A stretch of DNA of 33,254 bases, taken from the IMG/VR virus record IMGVR_UViG_3300034073_002507, positions 1 through 33,254 of that record; one strand, written 5' to 3'. The notes beneath the pieces are model-generated. The model did not search any database, had not been told where the DNA came from, and worked only from the letters and a program-made list of their open reading frames with translations. A program made the position numbers and the translations under genes. The DNA comes from a virus. Shown piece by piece: positions 1,930 through 26,207 of this stretch. Numbering within the stretch: the stretch's first letter is position 1; the number at the start of each line of letters is the position of its first letter.

Positions 1930-2122
1930 CGGATCCCTTTCTACCGTAATTGTATTTAATAAGATCTTCTGCCATCACAACCGCTTTCTTTTCTGTATAT
2001 GATTGTAACCCAACGAGCCATTTCGCAATGTACACCCCAAAGTATACACCATCATCCCAGTTAATTGTGATGCCAAATGCCATCCAGCCAACTAATCTGT
2101 CACAAAAAAACTTAAATTTCAT
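1907..2122 (-). CDS. small hypothetical protein downstream of the methyltransferase
   Basis: A 71-residue protein of unknown function, rich in aromatic residues (FKFFCDRLVGWMAFGITINWDD). The longer reading frame extends upstream through the methyltransferase gene, but the ATG at 2122 has a strong ribosome site, GGGAGG seven bases upstream, and gives an 11-base overlap with the methyltransferase stop (TAA at 2114-2112). That start is therefore preferred. The hydrophobic stretch around VYFGVYIAKWLVG is short and amphipathic rather than a clear membrane helix. Confidence 0.65.
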   Translation of the reverse strand: MKFKFFCDRLVGWMAFGITINWDDGVYFGVYIAKWLVGLQSYTEKKAVVMAEDLIKYNYGRKGSDAGHSNQ

Positions 2123-3482
2123 AGATTTTCCTCCCAATCCATTCTGCAACTGGACTCGCCACAGCATTACCGCACATTTTATATCTATTGGTATCCGCCA
2201 CAGGTTTTCCATCCTGATAGTATTTCGTATGCTCATCTGGAAATCCCATCAACCTTTCACACTCAAGTGGGGTCAATCTTCTGAGCAATAAATCAGGTGT
2301 CATAACTCCATGCTGTGAAATTGTATCAAGAGTATACGATGGATCGTTTTCATCACCAAAACCTTTCCCTTGCGGTCCGGCCTTGTCTGATCGACCAATA
2401 ATTGTTCCTTGAATTGGGATTGCAATATGGTCAGCTGAATCAATACCAATTCTTAATGTGCGATAAATATTTTCACTGATAGCATTATTGTATCCGTCAT
2501 AGGCAAGAACATTGTTGTCTACTCCAACCATGGGGACTTGATTTCCACCAGTACCCATTCTGTGCTGTAGTGTTGGGGCAATTTGATCTTCGTATATTCG
2601 TGCATCCCCCACCCTTGTAGCATCAAGCACAAAAGGTCTTTCAATTGCTACCCCGACACCATTTTGCCCATATAAACATTGCGAAACATTATATGAATGC
2701 ACCGGATCTTGCTTTAAATGAAAAGATATCGGTTCACAAACAACATTTCTTTCTGGGCGTTTATAATCAGTTGCGGCTAGCGTTACTCCGCCTTCTGTCC
2801 ATTTGGCAAATCCTGACTGTCCATAGAGGATAGGTTGATCAATGTTTGTCTTAGCGGCTCTGGCAGAATGTTTCCTTTCTTTTCTGCTCTTCTTAATATT
2901 CCCCTCGCTGTCTTTGGGGACAGGTAATATTTGTTCGGTACATCTTGAAGCGGTTCTAGAATCGTAACAAGCAAGCAAGAAGATTCTTCTTCTACGCTGG
3001 GCGACTCCGAACCATTGTGCATCCAAGATGTGCCATTCAAGGACCAATGCCCCGATGTTTGCCATTTCGTCAAGGACTTTTGCGAAGTCGTTTCCTTTAT
3101 TGCTTGTGAGGGCTCCGGGGACATTTTCCCAGATTGACCATTTTGGAAATTCATTTCCAGTTGCATCTCTCATCTCCTTTATAACTCTAATTGCCTCATA
3201 GAATAAGCCTGAGCGTGAACCCTCAAGCCCTCCACCCTTGCCAGCAACCGATAGGTCTTGACAAGGAGAACCAAAAACGATGCAATCTACTGGCTTTAAT
3301 TCTGCACCATTTACATCTTGAATATCCCAATATTTTGGCACATTGGGCCAATGCCTTTGCAACACAGATTGACAATGCTTATCCCACTCAACCTGCCAGC
3401 TACAATCCCAGCCAGCATTCTCCATTCCGATATCAAATCCGCCAACACCTGCAAACAGCGAACCAAAAGTTTTTTTATTCAT
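2112..3482 (-). CDS. dcm: C5-cytosine DNA methyltransferase, orphan
   Basis: A 456-residue DNA (cytosine-5)-methyltransferase that would transfer methyl groups from SAM to cytosine in a specific site. All core motifs are present in order: motif I SLFAGVGGFDIGMENAGW (8-25), motif IV GSPCQDLSVAGKG with catalytic C74, motif VI WENVPG (E119), motif VIII QRRRRIF (Q162), then a variable target-recognition region of about 200 residues, motif IX RRLTPLECERLMGFP and motif X RYKMCGNAVASPVAEWIG. No restriction endonuclease lies beside it, so it is most likely used to protect phage DNA from host restriction. It overlaps the upstream nuclease gene by 8 bases. Target site cannot be read from sequence. Confidence 0.93.
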   Translation of the reverse strand: MNKKTFGSLFAGVGGFDIGMENAGWDCSWQVEWDKHCQSVLQRHWPNVPKYWDIQDVNGAELKPVDCIVFGSPCQDLSVAGKGGGLEGSRSGLFYEAIRVIKEMRDATGNEFPKWSIWENVPGALTSNKGNDFAKVLDEMANIGALVLEWHILDAQWFGVAQRRRRIFLLACYDSRTASRCTEQILPVPKDSEGNIKKSRKERKHSARAAKTNIDQPILYGQSGFAKWTEGGVTLAATDYKRPERNVVCEPISFHLKQDPVHSYNVSQCLYGQNGVGVAIERPFVLDATRVGDARIYEDQIAPTLQHRMGTGGNQVPMVGVDNNVLAYDGYNNAISENIYRTLRIGIDSADHIAIPIQGTIIGRSDKAGPQGKGFGDENDPSYTLDTISQHGVMTPDLLLRRLTPLECERLMGFPDEHTKYYQDGKPVADTNRYKMCGNAVASPVAEWIGRKIYEI

Positions 3483-5039: not shown

Positions 5040-5061
5040 GTGAATAGAAATATACTATCAC
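5040..5061. repeat. imperfect inverted repeat upstream of the recombinase gene
   Basis: GTGAATAG and CTATCAC face each other across a 7-base AT-rich spacer, with one extra base in the left arm. It spans the stop codon of the upstream glycosyltransferase gene and most of the 32-base gap before the recombinase gene. It could be a small mRNA hairpin or a protein-binding site. It lacks a G+C-rich stem and U-tract, so it is not a standard terminator. Confidence 0.3.
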
Positions 5062-6104
5062 AAGGGCGTGACAGTGTTGAGCCATTCATTAATCTTTTTA
5101 GACTCCTCTTCAAAATCAACTGCCGCTTTAAAATGATTATATGCATCTACTGACATAGAATTTAAAAGCTCTTCATCTGCAGAAATAGATTTAATTTTAC
5201 TGACTGCATCATCAATGCTCATTTTATCCAGATCAATACAATTTTTATCACTAAATAATTCCTCAGCTAATTGATCTTTATAAAAACTGCTTCGTATAAT
5301 AGTTGGCTTGCCGCAAGCATATGCATTATATAAAATATGACCATAGCCATCTCCGCCGTGCTTAACATGAAAAACCATATCATTGTCTTTCATTGAATTT
5401 GCTAATGCAACAGGTCCAGCAAAATTACCATCACGGCATTGGCCGCCATATGATTTTAAATTATAGTTATCAGCAGCAAGCTCTGTTTCTAGCTTTACAA
5501 AATCATCCCAGCCATATCTAGTATATTGAAGAATATTAATATAACTGCTAATTTTTTTATTTGGCTTATGATAAGAAAAATTGAATACATCTAAATCAAA
5601 TTCTTGGTGATAATACATTGCATTATATTCCGGATCAGATTTTGGCTTTACAGAGGCTAAAACATTTCTGCCAAATAGCCAATCATCAGACCAGTTATTG
5701 CCTACTTGAACAATTAATCTTGCTTGAGGTTGATATTTACGAATTAACTCTTCATACATTTGAATGTGCCGAGGTATTGATGCGATAATAAAATCAAATT
5801 TCATTTCCTTAAATGTATCAAATGTAATGGCTTTATGGGTTGTTAAATTACCGGGATCATAGACATGATATATCCCGCTTTCCTCATTGGATATGGTATT
5901 TAATAACGGAGTATTATCAGCAAGACTAGTGCATTCAATATCTAAAAATTGTCTGGCGGTGTCAAGTTGATTATTGATTCCCCAATATCCATTGTTGAAC
6001 CATTCCATCCCGATTGGTCGATAGATTGGGATACCCAAACGATTTTCAAATAACATCACGAGCGATCTAAGTAATGAATTGTGATGAAAATCAACAAAGA
6101 TCAT
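5058..6104 (-). CDS. glycosyltransferase, GT-B fold
   Basis: A 348-residue putative glycosyltransferase. The C-terminal half has the donor-binding pattern of GT-B enzymes: MVFHVKHGGDGYGHILYNAYACGKPTI, where a Gly-rich turn and the acid-free YNAYACGKP helix sit where sugar-nucleotide is bound. The N-terminal half contains Rossmann-like strands (KFDFIIASIPRHIQ, QARLIVQVGN). It is the last of three adjacent glycosyltransferase genes and overlaps the previous one by 14 bases. No signal peptide or membrane segment is visible, so it acts in the cytoplasm. Acceptor and sugar are unknown: virion protein, host glycan or DNA are all conceivable. Confidence 0.72.
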   Translation of the reverse strand: MIFVDFHHNSLLRSLVMLFENRLGIPIYRPIGMEWFNNGYWGINNQLDTARQFLDIECTSLADNTPLLNTISNEESGIYHVYDPGNLTTHKAITFDTFKEMKFDFIIASIPRHIQMYEELIRKYQPQARLIVQVGNNWSDDWLFGRNVLASVKPKSDPEYNAMYYHQEFDLDVFNFSYHKPNKKISSYINILQYTRYGWDDFVKLETELAADNYNLKSYGGQCRDGNFAGPVALANSMKDNDMVFHVKHGGDGYGHILYNAYACGKPTIIRSSFYKDQLAEELFSDKNCIDLDKMSIDDAVSKIKSISADEELLNSMSVDAYNHFKAAVDFEEESKKINEWLNTVTPL

Positions 6105-7092
6105 TCAAGAAACTTTCCCATTGCTTGATTATTTTTTTCTTACCGAAGTGCTCAATGGCAAAACTTCTCTGCTGAGAGCTTATTTGAGTTGCATAATCAT
6201 AATCTTCAATCAACCTTGTTGTCGCTTCATTCATTTGTTCAACACTGTCACACACTATTCCGCCAATTTGATTGAGTAGATCTTCAACCTCATAAAAATC
6301 AAAATTATAAATAATATTTGCAAGCCTACTGTTGATAGCAACAATTGGAGTGCCGGTCATTAATGCTTCTATAAAAGAAAGTGTATATGATGCCGGAGCT
6401 GTGCCGCCATAAATCATTGCTCTTGCTTCCTGCATTTTTTGTATCTGCATATCATACGGAATGCAACCACCATTAAATTTTCCGATATCATCATTGCCCG
6501 GTCCATACACGATTCCGTTAAATTTTTCTATTACCGGCATAATTTGATCATAATGGCAATGGTCTCTTCGACCTTTTAAGCTTTGAGAAAATGTTAATAC
6601 GCTATTTGTTTGGCCGCTCCAGTTTGATAACTCATCTTCGTCTTTGTAAAATCTAATAAGCGCGTCTTCACCAAGATAATTTGGGATGTTTCGCTCTTTA
6701 GGAGAATATCTAACAATCTTTAAGCCATCTCTTCTATGCTCAGAAAGAGTTTCTTCTGTAATAGCAATTGATTGCCCGATAGTTCTCCAAATAACTTTCT
6801 TATGCCGCATCTTTTGCCAATTTTCTGTAATAACAGTCGGTGAATGCATCACGATAATTACATCAAATGGATCAATCAATTCTTGTGGAATATTTGTCTT
6901 GGCGGTTTGGGTTGCTAACCTAGCCCAATCTTCATAATATTTTGCTTCCGGCACACCCGGTCTTGGCAAAGTAATATGTCCTCTTGGATCAATATAAGCA
7001 CCATTAGAAAATACTTCATGCCCAAGATCCGTCAATAATCTTAATTCATCATATTCCAAAATAGAATGACAGCTAATATAATGTATTTTCAT
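6091..7092 (-). CDS. glycosyltransferase, GT-B fold (family 4-like)
   Basis: About 333 residues. It starts MKIHYISCHSILEYDELRLLTDLGHEV, a typical GT-B N-terminal strand-helix. The C-terminal region has YGGTAPASYTLSFIEALMTGTPIVAINS, matching the conserved E-x7-E-like donor-site helix of family 4 glycosyltransferases (here SFIEALMTGTPIVA). The ATG at 7092 is preferred over a GTG at 7116: GGAG lies eight bases upstream and the ATGA overlaps the stop of the preceding glycosyltransferase gene. Cytoplasmic by sequence. It lies between two other glycosyltransferases, suggesting that the three add successive sugars. Confidence 0.8.
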   Translation of the reverse strand: MKIHYISCHSILEYDELRLLTDLGHEVFSNGAYIDPRGHITLPRPGVPEAKYYEDWARLATQTAKTNIPQELIDPFDVIIVMHSPTVITENWQKMRHKKVIWRTIGQSIAITEETLSEHRRDGLKIVRYSPKERNIPNYLGEDALIRFYKDEDELSNWSGQTNSVLTFSQSLKGRRDHCHYDQIMPVIEKFNGIVYGPGNDDIGKFNGGCIPYDMQIQKMQEARAMIYGGTAPASYTLSFIEALMTGTPIVAINSRLANIIYNFDFYEVEDLLNQIGGIVCDSVEQMNEATTRLIEDYDYATQISSQQRSFAIEHFGKKKIIKQWESFLNDLC

Positions 7093-8141
7093 TTTACAGA
7101 CTCCAGTATTTTCCACATTCTATCAATATATTTTTCTGAAACCTTTTGCCAAGTCATATTATTCCCAATCCACATTGCGCTTTTATAAGTTTTATCTGCA
7201 ACTTGATCATAATTATTGGCAACATATTTCATTTTGTCGCAAAGATCATCAAAACTCGGCTTAGCCCATTGACCACAACCAACATATAAACCAAAAAGAG
7301 TGCTACTATCCCATTCAAAATCTAATGGCACAGACATATCCGCAAAATCTGTGCATGCTAGGACATTTGTACAGATTGTTGGAATTCCCTTTGCAATAGC
7401 TTGAAATGGTAGATTACCCCACCCTTCTCCGCTTGTTGGGAACAAAACGCAATCGGCTTTATCATAAATTCTTGCCAATTCAGCATGAGATACTTCTTCA
7501 TCAATCACTGTAATTCTAGGGTGATTGATACCCATTTTGTCATCACCAAACCACATTCTGGCATCTGGAGGGCCGTTGGATTTGTAAATTAATCTAAAGT
7601 CTTCATTTCTGCCATATGTTTTTAGGAAAGCATCTACAGCCATTTGAGAATTTTTTCTTGTCGCTGGTGAGCCAATAGAAAGGAATGTAAATTGTCTATG
7701 TGGCGATCTTTTCTTGGGGAAATAAAGTTCAGGGTCAACACCTAGTTTAAACTCATACACCGGCTTTTTAATTCCAGAATTAATAAAAACATCTTGCATT
7801 GCCTTACTGCATGTCCAAACTTCATCCATTTCATTGCATTTCTCAACCCAATTTTTTGGTAATTGATTGGTTTCCCAGAAAGTAAATCCAACACTGTAGC
7901 GTTGTGATTTAACAAATGTATCTGGAATTGAATGATTTATTACAATTTCATTTATATGATCTTCTTTTGAAAAGTAGCCAACCCCAATACCCATTTGCAA
8001 TCTCCCAATTTCATTTGGTAATTGGGGCTTGCTTCTTCTAATTGGCAATCCAGACCGGGAAATATGCTCGTAAAGACAGTCTGGGGTATAACCATATCCC
8101 TCACTGAATTTAGGAATTTGATTATCAGACCAAACAAGCAT
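7089..8141 (-). CDS. glycosyltransferase family 4-like protein
   Basis: A 350-residue GT-B glycosyltransferase. Key parts: FTFLSIGSPATRKNSQMAVDAF (start of the donor domain), RLIYKSNGPPDAR, HAELARIYDKADCVLFPTSGEGWGNLPFQAIAKGIPTICTN, given here in pieces: the segment PTSGEGWGNLPFQAIAKGIP is the classic family 4 donor-binding signature with E of SGEGWG and Q/E region of the following helix. The N-terminal acceptor domain includes GFTFWETNQLPKNW, often seen in family 4 enzymes. It begins the three-gene glycosyltransferase set. No ribosome site is visible before ATG 8141; a -10-like element six bases upstream may give a leaderless message. Confidence 0.88.
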   Translation of the reverse strand: MLVWSDNQIPKFSEGYGYTPDCLYEHISRSGLPIRRSKPQLPNEIGRLQMGIGVGYFSKEDHINEIVINHSIPDTFVKSQRYSVGFTFWETNQLPKNWVEKCNEMDEVWTCSKAMQDVFINSGIKKPVYEFKLGVDPELYFPKKRSPHRQFTFLSIGSPATRKNSQMAVDAFLKTYGRNEDFRLIYKSNGPPDARMWFGDDKMGINHPRITVIDEEVSHAELARIYDKADCVLFPTSGEGWGNLPFQAIAKGIPTICTNVLACTDFADMSVPLDFEWDSSTLFGLYVGCGQWAKPSFDDLCDKMKYVANNYDQVADKTYKSAMWIGNNMTWQKVSEKYIDRMWKILESVK

Positions 8142-8165: not shown

Positions 8166-11100
8166 TCATTTTTGAGCTACAAGATTCTTTCTTTTAATAA
8201 AATCATTAACGGTAATAAGAGCATCTGACGATGCCAACTTGTATGAGTCAATTCTTACTAATGGATTTTTTTCATCAATCTTGTCAATTTTAGCCGCATA
8301 CCAAGCATTTTGTTTAAGAATGCCCTTTACCTTTTTTAATACGCTGGCGAACACGACAATCTTAAACATTCTCTTACCATCCCAACAATAAATATTGCCC
8401 ATATCAAATCCGCGAGATGTTTTGAACAATCTAAGATTAAAGATATACAACAATGTTTTATCATTATCTACATCTCCAAGACCATGATTGTATAACCATG
8501 CATATTCATGATTGAGCCCTTGCATCTTTAGTTTAATAAAATCATGTAGTGGGGTATCAACATAATTATACGCATCACAGAAGTGGTGCAATGTTCTATC
8601 GCCAATCAATGCATAGATATGATCTCTTGTTGATAATTCAGTATTTCGCTCTGCAAATATTGTTGCAGAACCAGATAAGTCCTCTAGTTCAATTCGGAGA
8701 TATTGCGGAGTCTTTTTAGTTGATCTAACAATTGCTTTCACCAGCATTAATGGTGAGTTTGTCTCATGGAAATCAACTAGTTTATCAACAGCATCATCGA
8801 TTTCATTCTTCTCAGTATCTTCAATTGAGAAGCCAAGTATCGGCAGATAATATCGTTTATGGTCAAACTGAGACGCATACCCAAGAGAAGCAAAAGCCCC
8901 AATCTTGTCAAAGTTTTCTCTTAATGGCTTTTTAACCGCACTCTTTGAGCACTTGGCATCAAACTCTTCATAACAACTGAACGGTCTCTTAGCAAGGATT
9001 TCTGCAATTGCTGCTCGACCACAGGCTAACACATTGGATAGACCAAACCGAATGGCTGGCTTTTCTGCTGAGTAATCAATAGAAAAGAATTCATCCGACA
9101 AATTAACATCCGGCGGTAGAATCGGGATATCAAGACGCTGAGCTTCCATAAGATAGGCGGTGATCTTTTCACCAACATCTTCATTGAACAACAAAGCCCA
9201 AAGATATTCAGATGGGTAGTTGACCTTTAACCACATGGTTTGATAAGACAACATTGAATAGGCAACCGCGTGAGATTTATTAAACATATACAAAGCCGAG
9301 AGTTCAAACTCTGACCACATTTGTTTTGCCTCTGATTTTGGCAGGATGGAATTATTGATAAACTTATCTTTGTACTGTTCAAATTCAGCCGCGTCACGCT
9401 TTTTACCAATAATTTTCCTTAGTTTATCAGCATCTGACCATGAAAAGCCAGATAGCTTTACACACATTTGCATCAACTGCTCTTGGAAAATAACCGTGCC
9501 GTATGTCTCTTCCAGAATTGCCTTAACTGACTCGTCTGGGTAATAGGCAGGGTCAATTCCCTTCTTGCAGTTAATATAGCGCTCACCCTGTGAGAGCAAA
9601 GCGCCGGGTCTAACCAAGGCGTTTGAGACAACAAGATCATTAAAGTTGTCAATACCCATACGCTCAATAAGATTACGATAGGCAGCAGCATCTGTCTGGA
9701 ATACGCCAACGGTATTGCCCTCATTAAAATTCCGGTACACTTCGGGGTCATCCAACCCCAGAGAAAGTGCTTCTACATCTGCCCCATAACGCTTCCTAAT
9801 CATTCCTAAAGCGTCTTTAATCACAGATACGGTGCGAAGCCCCAAAATGTCAATTTTAATAAGCCCAACCGCCTCTGCGTCGGTCATGTCAAAGGCTGTC
9901 ACAACCGCCCTGCCCTCACCATCGGTGTCTTTTCGTGTCTCAATTGGGCAGACTTGTGTGAGTGGGATTGACGATACGACCATGCCAGCCGCATGTACGC
10001 CTGCATTACGCACACGCCCTTCTAGGCGCTTGGCAAGCTTTGGCACATCGGGATACTTTGAGCAGAACAATTTGCCCTTCGGCGTGGTCTGTAATTCTTC
10101 AATAGTCTCAAAATATGGCGTGATGTTATTGGTTTCCTTGTAGGGAACTTGTAGAACGCGAGCAACATCTTTAACCGCACTCTTTGGCTTATATGTGCCA
10201 AATGTGGTGATGGCCGCAACATTATCTTTACCCCAGCGCTCAATCAAATAAGACCGAACCTCTGTTCGCCTCTTATCCTCAAAGTCCAAGTCAATATCTG
10301 GGTAGTCGTTGCGCTCTGCATTAATAAATCGTGCAAACAACAAATTGTATTTCACAGGATCAACCTTGGTAATCTCCAGCAAGTACGCCAGCACACTACC
10401 GCCGACTGAGCCTCTTCCTGTTCCTCTACCAATACCGTTATTATCCGCCCATTTAATCAAATCCCAAACGATTAAGAAATAATCGGCAAATCCAAGTTGT
10501 TTAATAATCCCCAGCTCTTCGTAGAGTCGAGTCTTATACTCATCCCCAAGCCCCAGCTCTTTGAGCCGGAATTCAGCCATCTCTTTTAGATAATCATCCG
10601 AGTTAAGCGACTTCATGTACTTGGGCAAAAGATTGCGGCGCTTTTCAATTTTGGCAGTACATTTTTCTGCCACCTCTACGGTATTTTCTAAAATGTCTGA
10701 GCGATCATAACCGGCATCTTTAAACCAGCCAGCAATCTCTTCTGCTTTAGCAACATAAGGATTAATCTCATCAAATCGCAATTGGCGCTCAGGATACATC
10801 TTATTAAGCTTTTTTATGATATCCGTTTCGGCTTTATCAAACTTTGCCGCTTCTTGCTCAGCGTGTCTCAATACTGCTGGCGAGAAACCAGGATATTGAG
10901 ATACGCACAACAGGACTTCCTCACACCCCTTGTCGTGTGCGCTAGGGAAGTGGCAGTCTGCAGTCGCAACTACTTTTTTATTATAAGCACTGGCTAACTG
11001 AATAAGGCCATCATTAATCTTGTTACCGTTCCATGCTTGTACTTCATAATAGAAATCATCTTTAAAAATCTTTATGAAGCGTTCTGATAATTGTTCCGCC

Positions 11101-11558
11101 CTAGAGAAGTTGTCTGATTCAATTGCTCTAGAGATGGAACTAGCCATGCAACCCGACAAAGCGATGATATCGTCATCAACCAAGTCCTCTAGTAGTGCAA
11201 AGTCAATTCTTGGTTTATAATAAAAATTATCGGTCCAGCCAATCTTGGACATTTTAAATAGTTTCTCAAGACCGGCATTTGTCTTGGCAAGAAGAATTAA
11301 GTGGTGTCTTTCATGTTTACCATCATCATCACCGCTGATTGACGGAACGAAATATGCTTCGACACCAAAAAGAGGCTTTACTTTATTAGCGACACAAGCC
11401 TCTTGAAAACGCAGTACGCCAGCCATTGAGCCATGATCTGTGATTGCGGCAGCATATTGACCATTGATGCTTGTAATTTTAGCGATCTCTTCTGGCGTTG
11501 ACATCCCATCAAGCAGTGAGTATTCAGAATGGCAATGCAGGTGAACAAAGTTGTTCAT
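8166..11558 (-). CDS. dnaE: DNA polymerase III alpha subunit (DnaE type)
   Basis: A 1130-residue family C replicative polymerase, almost full bacterial length (E. coli 1160). The N-terminal PHP domain keeps its likely metal ligands: HLHCHSEYSLLDG (H8, H10, D17), TDHGSM (D41, H42), GVEAY (E67), SGC (C137) and ADCHF (D201, H203). An intact PHP set is associated with metal-dependent 3'-5' proofreading in many bacteria. The polymerase core has GRGTGRGSVGGS (378-388), PDIDLDFED with catalytic D421 and D423, and IKIDILGLR with D570. A helix-hairpin-helix-like and OB-like C-terminus follow (RIELEDLSGSATIFAE). I see no clear QxxLF clamp-binding motif. Start overlaps the HAD gene stop as TAATG. Confidence 0.95.
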   Translation of the reverse strand: MNNFVHLHCHSEYSLLDGMSTPEEIAKITSINGQYAAAITDHGSMAGVLRFQEACVANKVKPLFGVEAYFVPSISGDDDGKHERHHLILLAKTNAGLEKLFKMSKIGWTDNFYYKPRIDFALLEDLVDDDIIALSGCMASSISRAIESDNFSRAEQLSERFIKIFKDDFYYEVQAWNGNKINDGLIQLASAYNKKVVATADCHFPSAHDKGCEEVLLCVSQYPGFSPAVLRHAEQEAAKFDKAETDIIKKLNKMYPERQLRFDEINPYVAKAEEIAGWFKDAGYDRSDILENTVEVAEKCTAKIEKRRNLLPKYMKSLNSDDYLKEMAEFRLKELGLGDEYKTRLYEELGIIKQLGFADYFLIVWDLIKWADNNGIGRGTGRGSVGGSVLAYLLEITKVDPVKYNLLFARFINAERNDYPDIDLDFEDKRRTEVRSYLIERWGKDNVAAITTFGTYKPKSAVKDVARVLQVPYKETNNITPYFETIEELQTTPKGKLFCSKYPDVPKLAKRLEGRVRNAGVHAAGMVVSSIPLTQVCPIETRKDTDGEGRAVVTAFDMTDAEAVGLIKIDILGLRTVSVIKDALGMIRKRYGADVEALSLGLDDPEVYRNFNEGNTVGVFQTDAAAYRNLIERMGIDNFNDLVVSNALVRPGALLSQGERYINCKKGIDPAYYPDESVKAILEETYGTVIFQEQLMQMCVKLSGFSWSDADKLRKIIGKKRDAAEFEQYKDKFINNSILPKSEAKQMWSEFELSALYMFNKSHAVAYSMLSYQTMWLKVNYPSEYLWALLFNEDVGEKITAYLMEAQRLDIPILPPDVNLSDEFFSIDYSAEKPAIRFGLSNVLACGRAAIAEILAKRPFSCYEEFDAKCSKSAVKKPLRENFDKIGAFASLGYASQFDHKRYYLPILGFSIEDTEKNEIDDAVDKLVDFHETNSPLMLVKAIVRSTKKTPQYLRIELEDLSGSATIFAERNTELSTRDHIYALIGDRTLHHFCDAYNYVDTPLHDFIKLKMQGLNHEYAWLYNHGLGDVDNDKTLLYIFNLRLFKTSRGFDMGNIYCWDGKRMFKIVVFASVLKKVKGILKQNAWYAAKIDKIDEKNPLVRIDSYKLASSDALITVNDFIKRKNLVAQK

Positions 11559-18184: not shown

Positions 18185-18862
18185 TCAGACAATGCCTCCA
18201 ATGTCCTCAACATACATTTGCAACTCCCTAGTCCCAGATGAAGCTGGAACACTGTATGCTGGGGCATTTGCTGAACTTAATCCCTGGAATCTATTCACTG
18301 CTGCAAAGAATGATCTGTTTGTAAACCCAGCACCATCACTTGCAATTACAACAGAATGAGTGCCAGCACCAAATCTGCTGTCATATGAATTATTTCTGAG
18401 AGCAATATCGCTAATTGTTGCACCAGCACCGGCAGTTGCAACATTGATATAAGCAAAGATAGGCGGTGTAAATTCCGCAGAGTAGATCATTGTATTGACC
18501 CCGCCATGAGTGCCGTGATGCAGAGACACAACATAATAGGCATCCTCTGCTCCCTTTGCATCAACAACAAACCCCGTAAAGTTTAAAACGACACGGTAGT
18601 AACGATTCCCTTCAATTGAAACCCTTCTATCAGCACCACCAGTTCCAGTCTCATCTTTAAGCGCAATGATTTCATGCGTTGCAGAAAAGTCTGTGAAATT
18701 GCCACTACCAGAAGTAACAGATTTATACTTTTTAATACCTTGCGGCCGGTCATCAGTAGCCTCTTTAACCTGCTGGATATTTGTTGACATTTGCTGGAGG
18801 CGCTCCCCAGTAATTGGGCTACCGTCTGTCCATGAAACAACTGAATAGTTCTCGTATGCCAT
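18185..18862 (-). CDS. tail fibre or minor tail protein
   Basis: A 225-residue protein, probably a virion surface component. It begins MAYENYSVVSWTDGSPITGERLQQM, an opening I associate with minor tail or appendage proteins of actinobacterial phages; an N-terminal segment of this kind attaches the protein, and the rest would form a beta-rich head domain (RYYRVVLNFTGFVVDAKG, YYVVSLHHGTHGG, SVVIASDGAGF). It is rich in Gly, Ser, Ala and Val, with no cysteines. It is the last gene of the tail set. No ribosome site of normal spacing is seen; a perfect TATAAT lies six bases before the ATG. Confidence 0.7.
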   Translation of the reverse strand: MAYENYSVVSWTDGSPITGERLQQMSTNIQQVKEATDDRPQGIKKYKSVTSGSGNFTDFSATHEIIALKDETGTGGADRRVSIEGNRYYRVVLNFTGFVVDAKGAEDAYYVVSLHHGTHGGVNTMIYSAEFTPPIFAYINVATAGAGATISDIALRNNSYDSRFGAGTHSVVIASDGAGFTNRSFFAAVNRFQGLSSANAPAYSVPASSGTRELQMYVEDIGGIV

Positions 18863-18876: not shown

Positions 18877-19431
18877 TCAATTTTTCTTCACTCTAATAAC
18901 GGTATCCAAATATGAAGGACCATATTTAAAATACCAATGATCTGGTTCGCAATAAAAATAAAAAGCATATGCCACCATATTTGTTTCCGGTTCGGGAAAA
19001 TCTTCCCTCCAGTGTTCTTGAGCATTACCATACATGAAAAGCGCTTCGTTTTCTTTAAGCCTATATGGTTTATTTTCAACCCATAAATCCCAAGGCTGTT
19101 TTTGAAACAGGCAATAATCTATTGTATACTCGCAAGCATTATCATCTTTGTGTTTCCACAACCTAGCCTTTTCAGTTTCATAAATAACTAAAAGATTCCA
19201 TGATGGTTTTAATGTTTCACTTTTAAATTTTTCTTTTGCCATCGGAAGAAGAAGATTAGCCCCCTCATTTAAAACTTCTGTATTTGCCCACTGATATCTT
19301 CCAAAACCATCTGAATAGGCGGAGCCTTCGTTATTAATCCATAAATTAATAGCATACTTCTGTAAGGCACGAAAATAATATTGATCAAATACATTTTTAA
19401 CAATAAATGGATCTTGAATTGTTTTTACCAT
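18877..19431 (-). CDS. putative 2OG-Fe(II) oxygenase (prolyl-hydroxylase-like)
   Basis: About 184 residues, read as a double-stranded beta-helix oxygenase. In the frame numbered from the upstream TTG, the metal motif H-x-D is H99-x-D101 in LWKHKDDNACEYTIDYCLF, and the distal histidine is H145 in MYGNAQEHWRED, followed by a hydrophobic strand NMVAYAFYFYCEP. The order and spacing fit 2-oxoglutarate/Fe(II) dioxygenases that act on protein side chains, but I do not see the usual Arg/Lys that binds 2-oxoglutarate about ten residues after the distal His, which lowers confidence. ATG 19431 overlaps the previous stop by 7 bases. Its place three genes after a proline-rich fibre gene makes a fibre-modifying hydroxylase possible. 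Confidence 0.55.
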   Translation of the reverse strand: MVKTIQDPFIVKNVFDQYYFRALQKYAINLWINNEGSAYSDGFGRYQWANTEVLNEGANLLLPMAKEKFKSETLKPSWNLLVIYETEKARLWKHKDDNACEYTIDYCLFQKQPWDLWVENKPYRLKENEALFMYGNAQEHWREDFPEPETNMVAYAFYFYCEPDHWYFKYGPSYLDTVIRVKKN

Positions 19432-19646
19432 TTCTGTAGTGGGCAAGAAGCATTTTGCAATTTAACTTTAGATGTCATAATACACCCGCACTCCCGGCAT
19501 TGCTTTGTAAGTTTTATAAACCTATCGCAAGAAGAACAAATCTGTAGTCGCAACCCAGCAGTTTCCTCATTGATTTTTTTACCAGAAACAATATCCCACG
19601 GTCTCGTTTCGCCAATTTTCTTCTTGTACTCTGACCAAGCTGACAT
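19425..19646 (-). CDS. small zinc-ribbon protein of the SAWxEYK type
   Basis: A 73-residue protein: MSAWSEYKKKIGETRPWDIV, then a linker and a metal site ICSSC, CRECGC and a final C before PLQKW. Small proteins with this same layout (an aromatic-basic N-terminus, 'R-P-W-D', then CxxC...CxxCxC and a C-terminal CPLGKW-like end) are common in environmental tailed phages, often beside sugar- or protein-modifying genes; their function is unknown. ATG 19646 is preferred to the TTG at 19658. It lies between a glycosyltransferase-like gene and an oxygenase-like gene, so it may help recruit one of these to its target. Confidence 0.7.
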   Translation of the reverse strand: MSAWSEYKKKIGETRPWDIVSGKKINEETAGLRLQICSSCDRFIKLTKQCRECGCIMTSKVKLQNASCPLQKW

Positions 19647-19650
19647 AATA

Positions 19651-20667
19651 TTATCCAATATAACTTTCTTTCCACTCTCGCCACCAGAGCTTTTTACCTA
19701 TTGATATTTTATCATATGAATTCCATGAAAATGGATGACCTGAGATATTTTGATAGTCGCCCATATTTATCCAATGATGTGTATTATTTTTTCTTTGATT
19801 TATATTTCTATGAATTAAACCAGAATATGTACTTCCTATAGTGCCAATAAAATCTTCTGAATTACACATGATTAACATGCATATTAAATCAAATGATAAT
19901 TTACTTGCAATTGATAATTGTTTAAAATCAGACAAAAAATTATCTTTTATTATATTATCAATATAAACAACATCTCCATAATTTAATGCAATTTTTGAAT
20001 CTAATTCATCAGTAGATACAGCTATTAAATTAGATGACTGTTTTAATTTAAAAATAGCAGAATCGTATTCTTCTTTTTTAACAGAATATATCATTGATTT
20101 AAAATCAGTCTGACGCAGATGAATCCCCGAAAATTTTCCTATTTGATCAGATATCATTTTTGCGAATTCAACATATTCTTTTTTGAATACAATTTTTCTT
20201 AATTTTCTATTAAAAGATTTTGTGCGATTAAAAAACATTATTGAATAATAAGAAAGATTGTTATTAAAATAATATGATTTGGATTGATCCAAAATCAATA
20301 AAGATCTCCCCTCTGCAAATTTGTCAATATCTTTATCACCTGAATCTACTTGAATAAACCTATCCATAAGATTTGAAATATTGATTTGATGACTAGATGG
20401 CGTTTTTATTAAATATTTTGAAAAATAAATTTTATCCCTGTTTGGGATTTCAATAAAATCTGTAATATAGTTATTTTTTTCTTCAAATGAATTTGAATAA
20501 CTTGGTAGTTTTATTACCCCATGAATATTTATAATATCATTAATTAAGTATGATATACCGACCGCTAATTCTAAACTTATTAATTGATTAAATAACCCAC
20601 CATTCCATAACCTATATGCGGTATTTTTATTTAATTTGATTTTATGCTCTCTCCAAGGCGAATTCAT
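19651..20667 (-). CDS. putative fucosyltransferase-like glycosyltransferase, very AT-rich
   Basis: A 338-residue protein. FSGIHLRQTDF resembles the H-x-R-x-x-D motif I of alpha-1,2/O-fucosyltransferases (GT11, GT65, NodZ-like). The second conserved area of these folds appears as NLIAVSTDELDSKIAL and SFDLICMLIMCNSEDFIGTIGSTYSGLIHRN, split here as FDLICMLIMC and FIGTIGSTYSGLIH, where the Ser/Thr-rich turn would bind GDP-sugar. Sampled lines of the gene are only about 18% G+C against about 33-45% in its neighbours, and it is rich in Asn, Lys, Ile and Phe, suggesting recent transfer. It begins with a TAATG overlap. Sugar and acceptor are unknown. Confidence 0.6.
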   Translation of the reverse strand: MNSPWREHKIKLNKNTAYRLWNGGLFNQLISLELAVGISYLINDIINIHGVIKLPSYSNSFEEKNNYITDFIEIPNRDKIYFSKYLIKTPSSHQINISNLMDRFIQVDSGDKDIDKFAEGRSLLILDQSKSYYFNNNLSYYSIMFFNRTKSFNRKLRKIVFKKEYVEFAKMISDQIGKFSGIHLRQTDFKSMIYSVKKEEYDSAIFKLKQSSNLIAVSTDELDSKIALNYGDVVYIDNIIKDNFLSDFKQLSIASKLSFDLICMLIMCNSEDFIGTIGSTYSGLIHRNINQRKNNTHHWINMGDYQNISGHPFSWNSYDKISIGKKLWWREWKESYIG

Positions 20668-20864
20668 TATGGGGCAATAAAGTCATTTCCATCCCAAATC
20701 CAGCCTGGTATTACTTCAGGTCTGTTTGTAACATCAATTACAATTGGAGCACTTTGCAATCCCGCAGACCAAGATTGACTTCTCTGACCATCAATTTCGT
20801 CATCAAATTGAAGCTGCATAAAAACATCCCCTTCTGCAATAAAAACAAATCTTTTTAAAGCCAT
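20667..20864 (-). CDS. small conserved tail-associated protein
   Basis: A 65-residue protein starting MALKRFVFIAEGDVFMQLQF and ending PGWIWDGNDFIAP. Small phage proteins with a FVFI-EGDV opening and a P-GW-W-G-F ending are usually found next to tail-fibre genes, where they may be tail assembly or tip proteins; exact role unknown to me. The ATG has the strongest ribosome site in the neighbourhood, GGAGG four bases upstream, and an extended -10-like element lies in the 34-base gap before it, so this may begin a separate transcript covering the glycosyltransferase and oxygenase genes. Confidence 0.65.
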   Translation of the reverse strand: MALKRFVFIAEGDVFMQLQFDDEIDGQRSQSWSAGLQSAPIVIDVTNRPEVIPGWIWDGNDFIAP

Positions 20865-20888
20865 TATTCCTCCGTTTTAAACAAGTAT

Positions 20889-20897
20889 ATCATAGCA
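20889..20897 (-). promoter_or_regulatory. candidate extended -10 promoter
   Basis: The minus strand reads TGCTATGAT just after the fibre gene: TGn followed by TATGAT, one mismatch from TATAAT. There is no recognisable -35 at 16-18 bases, which extended -10 promoters do not need. It lies about 25 bases before ATG 20864 with its GGAGG site in between. Confidence 0.35.
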
Positions 20898-20898
20898 A

Positions 20899-22272
20899 TT
20901 AACCAATACAAATATTATTCTCAAGACAAATAAATCCATCAGGGCACGGCGGATTGCATACTGGAGCGGTGGGTGTCGGAGCAACTGGTGTCGGAGCAAC
21001 TGGAGTAGGCGCAACTGGTGTCGGAGCAACTGGAGTAGGCGCAACTGGTGTCGGAGCAACTGGAGTAGGCGCAACTGGAGTCGGAGCAACTGGTGTAGGC
21101 ACTGGTGTTGGGGTAGGTACTGGTGTTGGAGTAGATCCACATTGTGATAAGCATATCTCTATATAGCCAGATCCAGTCCATAAGATGGCATATACATCTG
21201 TACCATCATATCTAAATGACCAAGCATAATTTGCATTGTCAAAATAGTTGGCTGTATTTGAATAATACACGCCATATCTTGCTAAATCTATTGCTAAAGT
21301 ACCAGTTGTTGATCCAATTCTTGCTATATTAGTTGCTGTAACATCTTCCGCCTGCAAGTCATTATTACCAATCAATAATCCACCAGCTTCAATAGTTCCA
21401 CCATTATCTGCACTTATTGTCATTGTTGCAAACCCATTTGCGGAAAGACCGACCAGATCTCCACCCACGATATCCCAATTTCCAATAGCTCCAGCTGTTG
21501 CTGTGACAATGCCAGTTACTTCAAGAGTATTATTAGAAAATGTAATCCGATTATCAGAATCAATACCAACTTGAAATATTCCAGGCTCCCAATAATTTAA
21601 GTTATCAATATAAATATTTGCAACTTGGACATCGCCATCAATTTGAACACCTGAACCTATATAAACATATCCATTAACTGTATCAATACCATCGCCCTGT
21701 CCACCAATTACAATCTCATCACTATTCCAATAATTATTGCCATCAATAAACAATGTATCTGCCTGAATTGCACCCCTAATTACTGAACTATCAAATACTG
21801 CATCGCCGGCCCATGTAATAGCCCAGCCAACTGTTCCGATACCAGTTATAATTCCATTTGATGCAATAGTTCCGTCAAAGTTGTTGCTAGATATAACCGT
21901 ATTAACAAGCACTACATTTGCAGATAGTAGATCGGCAGTAATTGTTCCAGCAAGAATGTTGTTTGCAGTAATTGTATTTGCGGCAATTTCATTACCAGTA
22001 ACACTACCTGCAATAATATGAGCATTACCGTTTACAATACCCGGTTGAAGCACGAGACCTGATGGCTCAAGAATTGAAGAGTTAACTGTTGAAATAATAA
22101 ATTGTTTGAACCCGTTTTGATTTAATTCTTGTCGATAAACTCTATTTGGACCTCCAATATTCCCAAAATCAAAATCAAATATTGAGTATGCAGATGTGTC
22201 AATTAAAGATGAATTAACTCCGTCATGATTATGACCTCCGCCGGGAAAGAAATATATATTGGATTCATTCAT
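20899..22272 (-). CDS. tail fibre with Pro/Thr-rich repeats and cysteine-rich tip
   Basis: A 457-residue fibre. The N-terminus has FFPGGGHNHDGVNSSLI, a common segment in phage tail fibre and baseplate proteins, then long runs of short strand repeats (SVTGNEIAANTITANNILAG, TITADLLSAN) suggesting a trimeric beta-structure. The body ends near residue 375 with a compact domain (WSFRYDGTDVYAILWTGSGY). A stiff linker follows: PTPVPTPTPVPTP then eight VAPTP units, and last a small domain CNPPCPDGFICLENNIC, with four cysteines like an EB or EGF knot. Such a tip on a proline-rich stalk would hold a binding module away from the tail. Many Thr and Pro residues in the stalk are candidate sites for glycosylation or hydroxylation by genes just downstream. 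Confidence 0.82.
   Translation of the reverse strand: MNESNIYFFPGGGHNHDGVNSSLIDTSAYSIFDFDFGNIGGPNRVYRQELNQNGFKQFIISTVNSSILEPSGLVLQPGIVNGNAHIIAGSVTGNEIAANTITANNILAGTITADLLSANVVLVNTVISSNNFDGTIASNGIITGIGTVGWAITWAGDAVFDSSVIRGAIQADTLFIDGNNYWNSDEIVIGGQGDGIDTVNGYVYIGSGVQIDGDVQVANIYIDNLNYWEPGIFQVGIDSDNRITFSNNTLEVTGIVTATAGAIGNWDIVGGDLVGLSANGFATMTISADNGGTIEAGGLLIGNNDLQAEDVTATNIARIGSTTGTLAIDLARYGVYYSNTANYFDNANYAWSFRYDGTDVYAILWTGSGYIEICLSQCGSTPTPVPTPTPVPTPVAPTPVAPTPVAPTPVAPTPVAPTPVAPTPVAPTPVAPTPTAPVCNPPCPDGFICLENNICIG
20981..21100. repeat. tandem 15-base repeat, 8 units (30-base higher order)
   Basis: On the plus strand eight units begin GCAACTGG. The first six alternate strictly between GCAACTGGTGTCGGA and GCAACTGGAGTAGGC, giving a 30-base pattern; the last two swap their halves. 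Related but less regular ACTGGTGTTGG units continue to about 21131. Encodes VAPTP repeats of the fibre stalk. Copy number is likely to vary by slippage. Confidence 0.92.
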
Positions 22273-22274
22273 AA

Positions 22275-25200
22275 TTATGAAACCTGCCTAAGAACCATTT
22301 GCTGGGTAAAATTATTACCTATCGTTCTATTATATGATATCACCCAATAATCAGTATTTGTAATTCCAAGAGCTGTAAATGTTGTAATCCTTACCCGATC
22401 TCCAAGCTGAATTTTTGGCATTATTACACTCGTAATGTTTAAAATTGGCACTGGAATTTGTGTTTTAGAGATAATAAAATCAGCAATCTTTTGTGCATGA
22501 ACAGCATCATTAATAAAGTTACTTTGAATTGTTATATCTTTAAGACCATATTTTTTAATACTTTCAGTAACGGATGCTGTCTGTGATTTAATGTCAGAAT
22601 TTTGTTCTGAAATTTCAACCGGAATACCAGCAATTGATGTAGCGTATGGATAGCGCGTTTCACGATCTTCACCAGCAAGCATAACAATTTTTTCAACTGG
22701 AGCTGTATTTGCCGCAGCAATAATTAGCTCTGCGCCATAAGCATATGGAATGTATTTATGAATCTCAAGAAGATCTGGCTCATCTATTCTAATTGCTGTT
22801 ATGAATGGGGTCTGAACATTAAATGCTGGCGCTTTCTGGAATGAGACATTAAAGTATTTAACCTCTCTGATCTTTGATGCATTTCCGTTATCAATGGAAT
22901 GAGAAGTGGGGTTTGTTTGAAACTGCCCTCTTTCAAGATTATTAAATGAATTACCAGTTTTAGAATTATATTTAATTATTTCGCTACCGATCTTGATATA
23001 TCCAGCGTTTGGAAATGGGATATCGCTGTTTGATGAATAATATGCAACATTTGCATTAGATGTAAGATTTGCAGAAAGAGTAACAGTGGTTATTGTCGTA
23101 TCGTTTTCAACATTCCAAAGGGCTTGACGGGCATCTAATGCTTTCTGCAAACCAGATAGCGGAACATCAACTTTATTACACTGGAGCTGAACTGTGTAAC
23201 TCCCATCAATAATATATGTTGAATCGCTTAGCGTTGTTTGGACATTTGCATGCTGATCAATTGATGTTTCAAAGAATCTGTAGAAGTGTTCATACTTGGC
23301 TTTACCCAGTTCATCAATATACAATCGACCAATATCCGCAAAGGTAATATCATCAATTATCTGTTTTAAGCTAGAGTTATTTCCATACAAAAATGCAAAG
23401 TTTGTTAATGGCTGAATCTGAGATTCCGAATACCTATCTTTAACTTGTTTTGTAGTTAAGAATTGATTATAAATTTGGAATTCATCAACTATGAAACTTC
23501 TAATTGTTGATGGGGCTACTTCACCAACATTCGCTGTGAATGACGCTCCACGGCCGCCTATTGTGATATCAGAAACAAATGCAATCGGAATCCCAGTCAA
23601 AACTGTATTTGATTTTAAATCACCGTTTACATAATAGTAAAGACTTGATCCATCAAATGTTGCGACAATATGGCTAAATACACTATTTGAAAGTGCTGTA
23701 TTGGAAGACACCGTTTCAGTTGTAACAACAGAGTTTGCTAATGTTTTTATCTTAAATCCATTTGAAGAGCTGTTGTTAAAAAATTCAAAGCCGCTTGTTG
23801 GTGAACTATTAGCCCAAGTGCTAATATATTCACCATCGCTATCAAATGAGCCAGCATTAAACTTTCCATAAAATTCAACTGTCCATCTGCCAGTGTAGAG
23901 AGAAGAGTTTGAATTTGTAATGTTAATACTATCGTGCATCGGGATTCTAATATATGCATTAGACTCCAATAATACTGATCCATCTTTCGTTTCAGACACT
24001 AAACCAGTTGGCTGACTGAGTTTTGGATTATTTATATAAACACCGTTATTTCGCATATGATATGCATTGGCAACAGTAAGATCCTGTGAAGCATTTCTTG
24101 TTCCGATTGAATCAAATGTTGCTATTGTTGTGCATTCATTTGCAGTTACAATGGTATCAGAACCGGCTCCAACAACTTTATAAAGTGCAAGTCTAAAATT
24201 AGAAGATGCCCCACTGTTATAAGAATGATAAAACTCAATCCTTATTTTTCTTGGAACACCGGCTGTTAAATTGACCGTGCTACTTTGAAGTCTTGTATTT
24301 GATTCATAAGTATTCCACTTATTTAAAATAAGCGCATCATCAAGATATAGCCTTACTCCTCCGCCAGTAATATAAATAACTAAGTTTTGATTTCCACTTG
24401 CCAACGGAATATAATAGCCATCAATAACGCCATTATAATAATCTGAATAAACTGTTTCATTTGTCCCAGTAAAAGAATAATCTACCAATTGAACAGCATT
24501 TGAAGAGTTTGATGAAATATTTTTAGAAAGTGCAACAAATGATGGGCTAACAAATCTTGTCTCTCCAAGAGCCAAATCCATCTTTGTCAATTGTCGATCT
24601 AAAGCATCAGCCAATATATCTTTAACAGAAATGTCTTTTTTATTTGATGGCATTCCCCAAAATCTTGCCCGTAATCCATTAGATGGGATAATATCATTTC
24701 CGCTTCTATCAATAGTTTCTTCTTTAAATGAATAACTGGCTATTGCGCCTCTTTCAAGAGCGCCTTGAGAATATGTGCTTAATTTTTCAATATCTGCTTG
24801 AGGGAAGTTTGATCTCATCAATAGATTTTTTACTGCATCTCCGACATACGAATTCTGTAAAAGAAAACCATATTTGATTGTTTTTTCAACCAAATACTTA
24901 GTCCAATCCTGCATCGTTGCTCCAACCGTCATGGATGATGAAGCAGTATTCCATTCATCAATATAATATGTTCCATTTTTTACATATTCATACACTTCAA
25001 ACTTTACAGAAGATAGTGAGCTGTGAGATGTAGCCGTTGTCCCAGCATAACCGCGTTCAACAACATTTAATGTATCTGGGAGCGTTACACCAGAGCACAA
25101 GATAAGTTCCTCAGATTGAGTTCCCTTATCTAAAATAACAACAAAATAATTTCCAGCGCCGCCAGATGGGAATACCGTAGTGTCATTAACTATTAAACTA

Positions 25201-26207
25201 GTTGTTGTTGAATTTGCATTTGCTGTTAAGAATGTATCAAGATAAACATTATCTATGTAATCATCAGATGGCTTTTTAATTCTCCAACCTGAATAGATAT
25301 CAACTTTTAACTCTTTTTTAAGATACTTGCCATAATCTGAATTATTATCAAAGATATTGAACTTTTTAGTTGTATTATCAAATTCGACAGATGCAGTCCC
25401 CATCTCACTGCCGCCAATCGGCAGACTTGTCTCATGCACATCCCTAGTCCTATTGAGCGACATTGAAATTACATAATCGCTCATATCTTCTTCATACAGT
25501 GGAACAACTTCTTGTATCCGTGCATTATCTGACGGGTTGCGAGTGCTATGAGCAACAACTCTTATTTTTGCTATATTTTGTGTAGATAAAGCAGGTGATA
25601 AAATGTGTTCTTTATAATATGTATTTAATGGAATTAAATCGCTAAAAGATACAACAACATTATTGGATGCATCATAAGCGTAAATTGTATAATTTGCTAT
25701 TCTTCCATAATATTCAGATGTAACAATCTTTATCTTATTTACTTTTCTAGCTGTAAATGTAGCTTCAATATATGGATCTGTAATAAATCCATATCCTGTA
25801 TATGTTCCATGCAAAGAAGCGTTGCTTTGACTACCAGACCACCACCCAAACTCTAAATTGCCGCCAACCTGTGTATTTGCAAGATCTGTCGTTATTAAAG
25901 ATGGCATGGTGTACCAAGTGCCATCTGCCTTTATAACATCGCCATCCTTGTCCTTAGCGCCTGCTACACCCCATGTAAACGATTGCCTTTCAATCCCATT
26001 AAAAGCCTCAGAAGCTGAGAAGTAGAACCCAATTTCGGGGTATGAAGTATTAGCATGAGCGCTGTTAGTCGTCACAGCAAGATTATCAAGATGGCGACTA
26101 TCTAACCAAGTCACTACTACTTTTGGCTTAATCTTTTGCGCCTTAGCCGCAATAGCGGTATTAAAGTCTGATGACAGGTCTTTATTGTATTGATCAACTG
26201 TAATCAT
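22275..26207 (-). CDS. large tail hub/adhesin with PA14-like and LamG-like domains
   Basis: A 1310-residue tail protein. Its first 250 residues are beta-rich with a galactose-binding-like look (WYTMPSLITTDLANTQVGGN, KIRVVAHSTRNPSDNARI). A region near 250-540 and the C-terminal 250 residues (ending with LGDRVRITTFTALGITNTDYWVIS, split here at 20) read as the tail-hub scaffold found below the tape measure gene. Two insertions look like carbohydrate-binding modules: a PA14-like domain near 572-679 (YSFTGTNETVYSDYYNG, VRLYLDDALILNKW, RKIRIEFYHSY) and a LamG/concanavalin-like domain near 740-912 (GRWTVEFYGKF, HIVATFDGSSLYYYVNGDLK, SFIVDEFQIYNQFLT). It starts with a TGATG overlap. Likely receptor contact and baseplate role. 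Confidence 0.75.
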   Translation of the reverse strand: MITVDQYNKDLSSDFNTAIAAKAQKIKPKVVVTWLDSRHLDNLAVTTNSAHANTSYPEIGFYFSASEAFNGIERQSFTWGVAGAKDKDGDVIKADGTWYTMPSLITTDLANTQVGGNLEFGWWSGSQSNASLHGTYTGYGFITDPYIEATFTARKVNKIKIVTSEYYGRIANYTIYAYDASNNVVVSFSDLIPLNTYYKEHILSPALSTQNIAKIRVVAHSTRNPSDNARIQEVVPLYEEDMSDYVISMSLNRTRDVHETSLPIGGSEMGTASVEFDNTTKKFNIFDNNSDYGKYLKKELKVDIYSGWRIKKPSDDYIDNVYLDTFLTANANSTTTSLIVNDTTVFPSGGAGNYFVVILDKGTQSEELILCSGVTLPDTLNVVERGYAGTTATSHSSLSSVKFEVYEYVKNGTYYIDEWNTASSSMTVGATMQDWTKYLVEKTIKYGFLLQNSYVGDAVKNLLMRSNFPQADIEKLSTYSQGALERGAIASYSFKEETIDRSGNDIIPSNGLRARFWGMPSNKKDISVKDILADALDRQLTKMDLALGETRFVSPSFVALSKNISSNSSNAVQLVDYSFTGTNETVYSDYYNGVIDGYYIPLASGNQNLVIYITGGGVRLYLDDALILNKWNTYESNTRLQSSTVNLTAGVPRKIRIEFYHSYNSGASSNFRLALYKVVGAGSDTIVTANECTTIATFDSIGTRNASQDLTVANAYHMRNNGVYINNPKLSQPTGLVSETKDGSVLLESNAYIRIPMHDSINITNSNSSLYTGRWTVEFYGKFNAGSFDSDGEYISTWANSSPTSGFEFFNNSSSNGFKIKTLANSVVTTETVSSNTALSNSVFSHIVATFDGSSLYYYVNGDLKSNTVLTGIPIAFVSDITIGGRGASFTANVGEVAPSTIRSFIVDEFQIYNQFLTTKQVKDRYSESQIQPLTNFAFLYGNNSSLKQIIDDITFADIGRLYIDELGKAKYEHFYRFFETSIDQHANVQTTLSDSTYIIDGSYTVQLQCNKVDVPLSGLQKALDARQALWNVENDTTITTVTLSANLTSNANVAYYSSNSDIPFPNAGYIKIGSEIIKYNSKTGNSFNNLERGQFQTNPTSHSIDNGNASKIREVKYFNVSFQKAPAFNVQTPFITAIRIDEPDLLEIHKYIPYAYGAELIIAAANTAPVEKIVMLAGEDRETRYPYATSIAGIPVEISEQNSDIKSQTASVTESIKKYGLKDITIQSNFINDAVHAQKIADFIISKTQIPVPILNITSVIMPKIQLGDRVRITTFTALGITNTDYWVISYNRTIGNNFTQQMVLRQVS

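Follow-up and report, generated by a model that had tools for sequence, protein, structure and literature searches.

The 33,254-base virus record IMGVR_UViG_3300034073_002507, analysed over its whole length and referred to below as the window, carries a fibre gene ending in a proline/threonine-repeat stalk and, close behind it, genes for a glycosyltransferase, a zinc ribbon (ZnR) and a protein, here termed OG, with the fold of the 2-oxoglutarate (2OG)/Fe(II)-dependent oxygenases. Since in many uncultured phages a hydroxylase, a ZnR and usually a glycosyltransferase stand directly behind Pro/Thr-repeat fibres, we infer that phages of this kind probably hydroxylate and sugar-coat their own stalks by means of a phage-encoded cassette, much like plants treating the proteins of their cell walls. 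Sequence comparison and structural models suggest that OG hydroxylates stalk prolines and that the transferase puts sugar on that same stalk, with hydroxyproline or threonine as acceptor. The original prediction of a dedicated hydroxylase and glycosyltransferase cassette behind the stalk is thus supported by comparative genomics and by fold.

The oxygenase and the repeat stalk

The open reading frame (ORF) of OG opens at a TTG; homologues start about the following ATG (19431), which gives 184 amino acids. The triad first read as H99-x-D101 and H145 in 189-residue numbering was correct and corresponds to H94, D96 and H140 from that ATG. It is invariant in 52/52 relatives, and equally so when 31 diverse relatives (42–77% identity to the window copy) are aligned; the motifs KHKDDNAC and HWR show little or no variation there. 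An AlphaFold model built from this alignment (mean predicted local distance difference test score, pLDDT, 91.7) was compared with the PDB using Foldseek. There were 574 matches at E<=0.001, the best 50 of the 574 all being of 2OG-oxygenase type. The best matches include Dictyostelium PHD (6t8m, at the head of the list), PHD2, a Pseudomonas prolyl 4-hydroxylase (P4H) and vCPH of PBCV-1, so that the proposed 2OG fold, a jelly-roll or double-stranded beta-helix, is borne out, with prolyl hydroxylases heading the listed PDB matches. OG has no sequence match in Pfam, NCBIfam or the PDB chains, and by sequence it is not placed in a known P4H family. The fold evidence makes the superfamily secure and favours a prolyl-hydroxylase-like enzyme; fold alone does not prove the exact substrate. 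OG is almost certainly an active 2OG oxygenase, and stalk proline is likely its substrate.

PHROG_2954 also matches OG (E 2e-11). Its name, ferrochelatase, is misleading: in Synechococcus phages S-SM1, S-PM2 and S-SCSM1 (contigs L322, L324 and L328) genes of this type sit among 2OG-Fe(II) oxygenase genes, one neighbour is labelled leprecan, and the ferrochelatase annotation looks wrong. A match to the immunity protein family Imm12 of Pfam (E 0.009) is below the cut-off and was rejected.

The (VAPTP)8 array reported for the fibre was found exactly as such: eight tandem copies of VAPTP occupy residues 395–434, after STPTPVPTPTPVPTP, and Tandem Repeats Finder gives a period of 15/30 at 20972–21100 (score 226). 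Another contig (L001) carries an identical repeat. The array lies at the C-terminal end, with only a Cys-rich tip, CNPPCPDGFICLENNICIG, beyond it. Across the stalks of related loci the residue preceding proline is T in 1983 cases, A in 914, V in 312, P in 100 and S in 61. Units vary (VAPTP, TPTP, VPVP, VTP, and VPVPVP in L016 and L044) and proline is constant throughout. Lysine is absent from the repeats, and lysyl hydroxylation of the stalk was rejected on that ground. In L016, L044 and L032 just 11–25% of stalk prolines follow T, and a POFUT-like transferase gene (see below) is present. The scarcity of prolines after T in L016 and L044, the constancy of proline and the lack of lysine together point to proline as the target; of the residues that make up the stalk, proline is the one on which such oxygenases usually act. 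FFPP units occur within some stalks (L034, L053 and L312), and a APFFPPSFFAPPGFFAPP-type repeat family is present in a gene downstream of OG in L031, L045 and L057 (e.g. L057:11760).

OG relatives are frequent in IMG/VR, with 370 confirmed stretches, and OG in the fetched loci forms 63 clusters at 95% identity. A gene with at least 9 prolines in 24 residues, on the same strand and within 4 kb, was scored as Pro-rich and upstream. Such a gene precedes OG in 60/63 clusters, and in the other three the contig ends less than 2 kb upstream; among other ORFs of at least 150 amino acids in the same loci only 4/494 are Pro-rich. With the repeats masked, single-linkage similarity sorts the fibres into 9 groups, of which one has 47 members, two have 3 each and six are singletons. 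In the window's group (L001, L003 and L085) no non-cassette neighbour is common with other contexts, and the transferase lies before OG, elsewhere after it, which suggests that the linkage outlived transfer and rearrangement. No OG relative was confirmed in 84,980 prokaryote species (one genome each; the scan requires one of two peptide patterns). Cultured phages yielded none with the cassette, OG being represented there only by weak cyanophage relatives; Xanthomonas and Stenotrophomonas phages were discarded as cultured models because their GT60 and ZnR matches are in unrelated regions.

The reverse search agrees that repeat fibres neighbour OG relatives, as originally proposed. IMG/VR was scanned by repeat DNA patterns, blind to the enzymes, and loci with a usable downstream stretch were counted. 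Behind (VAPTP)2, OG is present in 65/78 loci, ZnR in 66/78 and one of three transferase families in 68/78; these counts make VAPTP an almost diagnostic mark of the OG cassette. (VTP)4 loci have OG in 3/70, any of three hydroxylase families in 18/70 and ZnR in 18/70, and (TP)6 loci have OG in 1/63 and GT60 in 10/63. Collagen-type (GPx)5 loci have OG, ZnR and glycosyltransferase each in 0/62 and a P4H-type gene in 6/62, while (TA)6 loci gave 0/35 for everything scored. Collagen-like fibres lie upstream of OG in some loci, yet were rejected as its substrate on the zero counts for OG and ZnR in (GPx)5 contigs.

Other Pro repeats are accompanied by related sets of enzymes. A canonical P4H-type protein of the 2OG-FeII_Oxy_3 family (PF13640, E 3e-17), whose best PDB relatives are prolyl hydroxylases, stands near OG in 17/63 clusters, mostly as the gene immediately before it; together with ZnR it takes OG's place behind VTP repeats. 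In L572 and in Synechococcus phage S-SCSM1 a fusion joins OG to a member of this family. Among the (VTP)4 loci, L469, L488, L505 and L508, for example, show a sister cassette without OG, in which a VTP-repeat gene, a zinc ribbon, a P4H-type oxygenase and a JmjC/cupin-like oxygenase stand in a row.

Glycosyltransferases, sugar donors and the zinc ribbon

A profile of 19 relatives of the window's transferase matches human POFUT2 (E 2.8e-5) across GxHLRxxD and FIGTSxST, and its AlphaFold 2 (AF2) model (pLDDT 82.6) matches POFUT1, POFUT2, FUT8 and NodZ in Foldseek, at the domain level only because the root mean square deviation is large. Profile and fold, the latter of the GT-B fucosyltransferase type with the HxR motif region, therefore back the initial reading of this protein as fucosyltransferase-like. 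As its Pfam O-FucT score is 15.6 bits against a cut-off of 31.5, it is called POFUT-like here, a distant relative of the GDP-fucose protein O-fucosyltransferases (POFUTs; GT65/GT68). Prion matches of the profile were dismissed as chance, arising from low-complexity Tyr-rich sequence. A POFUT1 consensus in the Cys-rich tip is unsupported, since CPDGFIC has no Ser/Thr before the next Cys.

One of three transferase families is near OG in 53/63 clusters (POFUT-like in 28, GT60 in 17, a third family in 10), and a relation of repeat composition to transferase class is no more than suggestive (p 0.056). GT60 (PF11397), found in related loci and not in the window, is above the Pfam cut-off (E 2.6e-20 to 5e-76; in OG loci E down to 6e-43). 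This family includes Gnt1, the Skp1 hydroxyproline N-acetylglucosamine (GlcNAc) transferase, whose activity requires prior prolyl hydroxylation, and also a Trypanosoma cruzi polypeptide GlcNAc transferase (PMC6939170).

In 30 clusters a gene encodes a GDP-mannose 3,5-epimerase, which matches the PDB enzyme with phmmer E 8e-90. It occurs in 20/25 loci with the POFUT-like enzyme only and in 0/12 with GT60 only (Fisher p 3e-6, uncorrected for relatedness). Such a distribution fits a GDP-sugar donor for the POFUT-like enzyme, which may be GDP-fucose or GDP-L-galactose, and UDP-GlcNAc for GT60. A search of 4 records of the window's own group, not one of them known to be complete, turned up no epimerase. 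That the transferase acts on the same stalk as OG is, in our judgement, likely.

The ZnR, identified as a zinc ribbon in the original prediction, is backed by DUF6171 (PF19668), which it matches just above the cut-off in the window (27.4 against 27 bits) and with 28–30 bits in relatives. Present in 62/63 OG loci, it is a near-constant partner of OG. In L171:930-2132 a single ORF fuses the DUF6171 zinc ribbon to GT60, both parts above their Pfam cut-offs. This fusion gene lies close behind a TP-repeat gene and is followed by an HtrL_YibB-like gene (PF09612 E 1e-46).

Weighing the explanations

Several points weigh against a stalk-modification cassette. The OG fold matches are at superfamily level (template modelling score ~0.6), with AlkB and SnoN close too. 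The usual 2OG-binding Arg/Lys some 10 residues past the distal His is not evident, T150 being found there; candidates for this role are the basic residues R45, K93, K95 and R142 (at distal His +2), all of them invariant. Ten of the 63 OG clusters are without any of the three transferase families, most TP-repeat genes are without OG, and the control sets of the repeat scan are higher in GC. Moreover, 57/63 loci are chained through shared neighbour genes, so that the 63 clusters are not independent events. Lastly, no hydroxyproline was detected in PBCV-1 virions although the viral P4H is active on peptides (PMC7019647).

In the cassette reading the fibre would end in a stalk of polyproline type, built of xPro units (VAPTP/TP), whose prolines OG, using 2-oxoglutarate, Fe(II) and O2, would hydroxylate inside the infected cell. 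The adjacent transferase would add sugar, on hydroxyproline in the manner of Skp1 or extensins or on threonine. Its type would depend on the phage, a GDP-sugar-using, fucosyltransferase-like enzyme here and GT60 or the third family elsewhere. The ZnR probably serves as an adaptor, bringing the enzymes to the stalk, and the likely outcome would be a stiff, glycan-coated, protease-resistant stalk. Between hydroxyproline and threonine as the site of the sugar we regard the balance as about even. One elaboration, which we hold with somewhat less than even confidence, is a hydroxyproline-O-glycosylation pathway of bacterial viruses. OG would make 4-hydroxyproline and the transferase would sugar it, with GlcNAc via GT60 and with fucose or phage-made L-galactose via the POFUT-like enzyme. 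The product would be an extensin- or arabinogalactan protein-like glycorod, with the ZnR as docking subunit and the repeat sequence serving as a code to which the set of enzymes corresponds.

A tentative alternative, to which we would give not quite an even chance, is that the transferase sugars stalk threonines directly while OG independently stiffens the stalk by proline hydroxylation, or acts elsewhere on the fibre. POFUTs act on Ser/Thr, and T is the commonest residue ahead of proline in the stalks. In several contigs GT60 genes adjoin TP repeats without a hydroxylase recognised by the models used, so that glycosylation need not depend on hydroxylation everywhere, and GT60 holds the T. cruzi enzyme beside Gnt1 (PMC6939170). 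This account fits poorly with L016, L044 and L032, where few prolines follow T despite a POFUT-like gene, and with the fact that OG adjoins stalks without exception where context allows. Because tail-fibre regions recombine often, fibre, oxygenase and transferase might instead have travelled as one mobile tail module, the target of OG being another fibre domain, a host protein or a small molecule; cyanophage OG relatives do lie in 2OG oxygenase arrays without Thr/Pro repeats in the flanks examined. We consider such hitchhiking unlikely, as collagen- and TA-repeat viral loci are entirely without OG and ZnR and the link of OG to the stalk is kept with several fibre families, as defined by non-repeat sequence, and with a moved gene order.

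Phage glycosyltransferases often act on host glycans (PMC10955285), and three further glycosyltransferase-like genes are present in the window. Transferase and oxygenase could therefore act on the surface of the host, by excluding superinfection or changing a receptor, their position in the tail region being accidental. The protein O-fucosyltransferase and GT60 families, however, act on polypeptides, and the ZnR-GT60 fusion close behind a TP gene, like the constant position near the stalk gene, makes this explanation quite improbable. That the repeat is a mere stiff polyproline spacer beside decaying or irrelevant enzymes would agree with the lack of recognised enzymes near most (TP)6 viral genes; with catalytic residues invariant and purifying selection strong, we think it highly improbable.

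Gene layout, known systems and significance

The window encodes a tape-measure protein, a minor tail protein, a DnaB-type helicase, a primase, a Pol III-like polymerase and RecA-like and MazG-like proteins, and on account of its tape-measure, tail and replication genes it is considered a fragment of a siphovirus (long-tailed phage). The cassette genes lie head to tail, all on the minus strand, in the order and at the positions first assigned to them (Table 1).

Table 1. Features of the fibre region of the window
Feature	Position	Strand	Evidence or remarks
Minor tail protein	22275-26207		phrog_10359 E 1e-13; fibre gene lies behind it
Fibre-type protein, 457 aa (amino acids), with C-terminal Pro/Thr-repeat stalk; presumed substrate	20899..22272	-	
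Pro-rich stalk, STPTPVPTPTPVPTP + (VAPTP)8 + TAP	20962..21135	-	aa 380-437
Short Cys-rich tip, CNPPCPDGFICLENNICIG, ~20 aa	20902..20961	-	kept in relatives
Small protein, 65 aa	20667..20864	-	weak phrog_14370
Glycosyltransferase, POFUT-like, 338 aa	19651..20667	-	HLRxTD motif; POFUT2 profile match and AF2 model
DUF6171 zinc ribbon (ZnR), 77 aa	19425..19658	-	Pfam E 4e-6
OG, 2OG-Fe(II) oxygenase-fold enzyme, predicted prolyl hydroxylase	18877..19431	-	H94-x-D96, H140
Second fibre-type protein	18185..18862	-	next gene in operon

The cassette genes are under purifying selection (for OG, non-synonymous divergence dN is 0.16 against a synonymous divergence dS of about 2). The second fibre-type protein shows 39–66% identity in the window's closest relatives, and homologues of the 65-residue protein belong to a minority of cassettes (11/63 contexts in its neighbour cluster). 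The three glycosyltransferase-like genes lie one after another at 5058–8141 (minus strand): one is GT4-like (PF13692 E 3e-8, phrog_2170 E 2e-31), one has a weak PF13524 match and one is without assignment. In two relatives the first of the three is conserved at 71% and 67%. Their products may lengthen the stalk glycan, provide it, or act on a different target. Also on the minus strand are a C5-cytosine DNA methyltransferase (2112–3482; PF00145 E 1e-60) and a phage DnaE/Pol III alpha-type polymerase with a PHP domain (8166–11558).

No phage system of this form is described in the open-access full-text literature searched, and we know of none. The established parallels are the glycosylation of extensins and arabinogalactan proteins and Thr-linked glycosylation. 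The plant and algal proteins share with the phage stalk AP/TP/VP units, a prolyl hydroxylase acting with glycosyltransferases and a structural extracellular role; they differ in that other enzyme families are employed, whereas the phage cassette is a compact viral operon in a bacterium. Mycobacteriophage glycosyltransferases reportedly glycosylate the virion (work attributed to Freeman et al. in 2023, as cited in PMC10955285), and the likeness lies in a glycosylated phage particle; to our knowledge no prolyl hydroxylase or Pro-repeat stalk is involved there. In the Skp1 pathway of Dictyostelium and Toxoplasma the hydroxylase PhyA, whose fold is like that of OG, is followed by Gnt1, and many phage loci pair OG with GT60. 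That pathway, however, modifies one proline of a regulatory protein rather than dozens in a structural repeat, and the window's phage has a fucosyltransferase-like enzyme in place of GT60. The cyanophage 2OG-Fe(II) oxygenases, or 'P4HA', are distant relatives of OG (25–30% identity), some near tail-fibre genes, but have no Thr/Pro repeat, glycosyltransferase or full cassette in the regions examined; what they do has been termed cryptic (PMC9301287). PBCV-1 vCPH, one of the Foldseek matches of OG, is likewise a virus-encoded small 2OG prolyl hydroxylase and is sequence-specific on Pro peptides (PMC7019647); it belongs to a eukaryotic virus, and at the sequence level no PDB chain detectably matches OG.

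Few auxiliary metabolic genes are as abundant in aquatic viruses as prolyl hydroxylases, yet the use that viruses make of them has been called cryptic (PMC9301287); for the well-studied P4H of chloroviruses neither a role nor a substrate in the virion is known (PMC7019647). The locus type described here puts an enzyme, its probable substrate and the probable next step in one operon, and gives these abundant, unexplained hydroxylases a testable job. If the cassette reading is true, stalks of extensin-like glycoprotein are made by phages. This would have consequences for receptor binding, for resistance to proteases, for protection from host defences and for the dependence of infection on oxygen. 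Compact operons would also become available for producing proline-rich proteins that are hydroxylated and glycosylated in bacteria.

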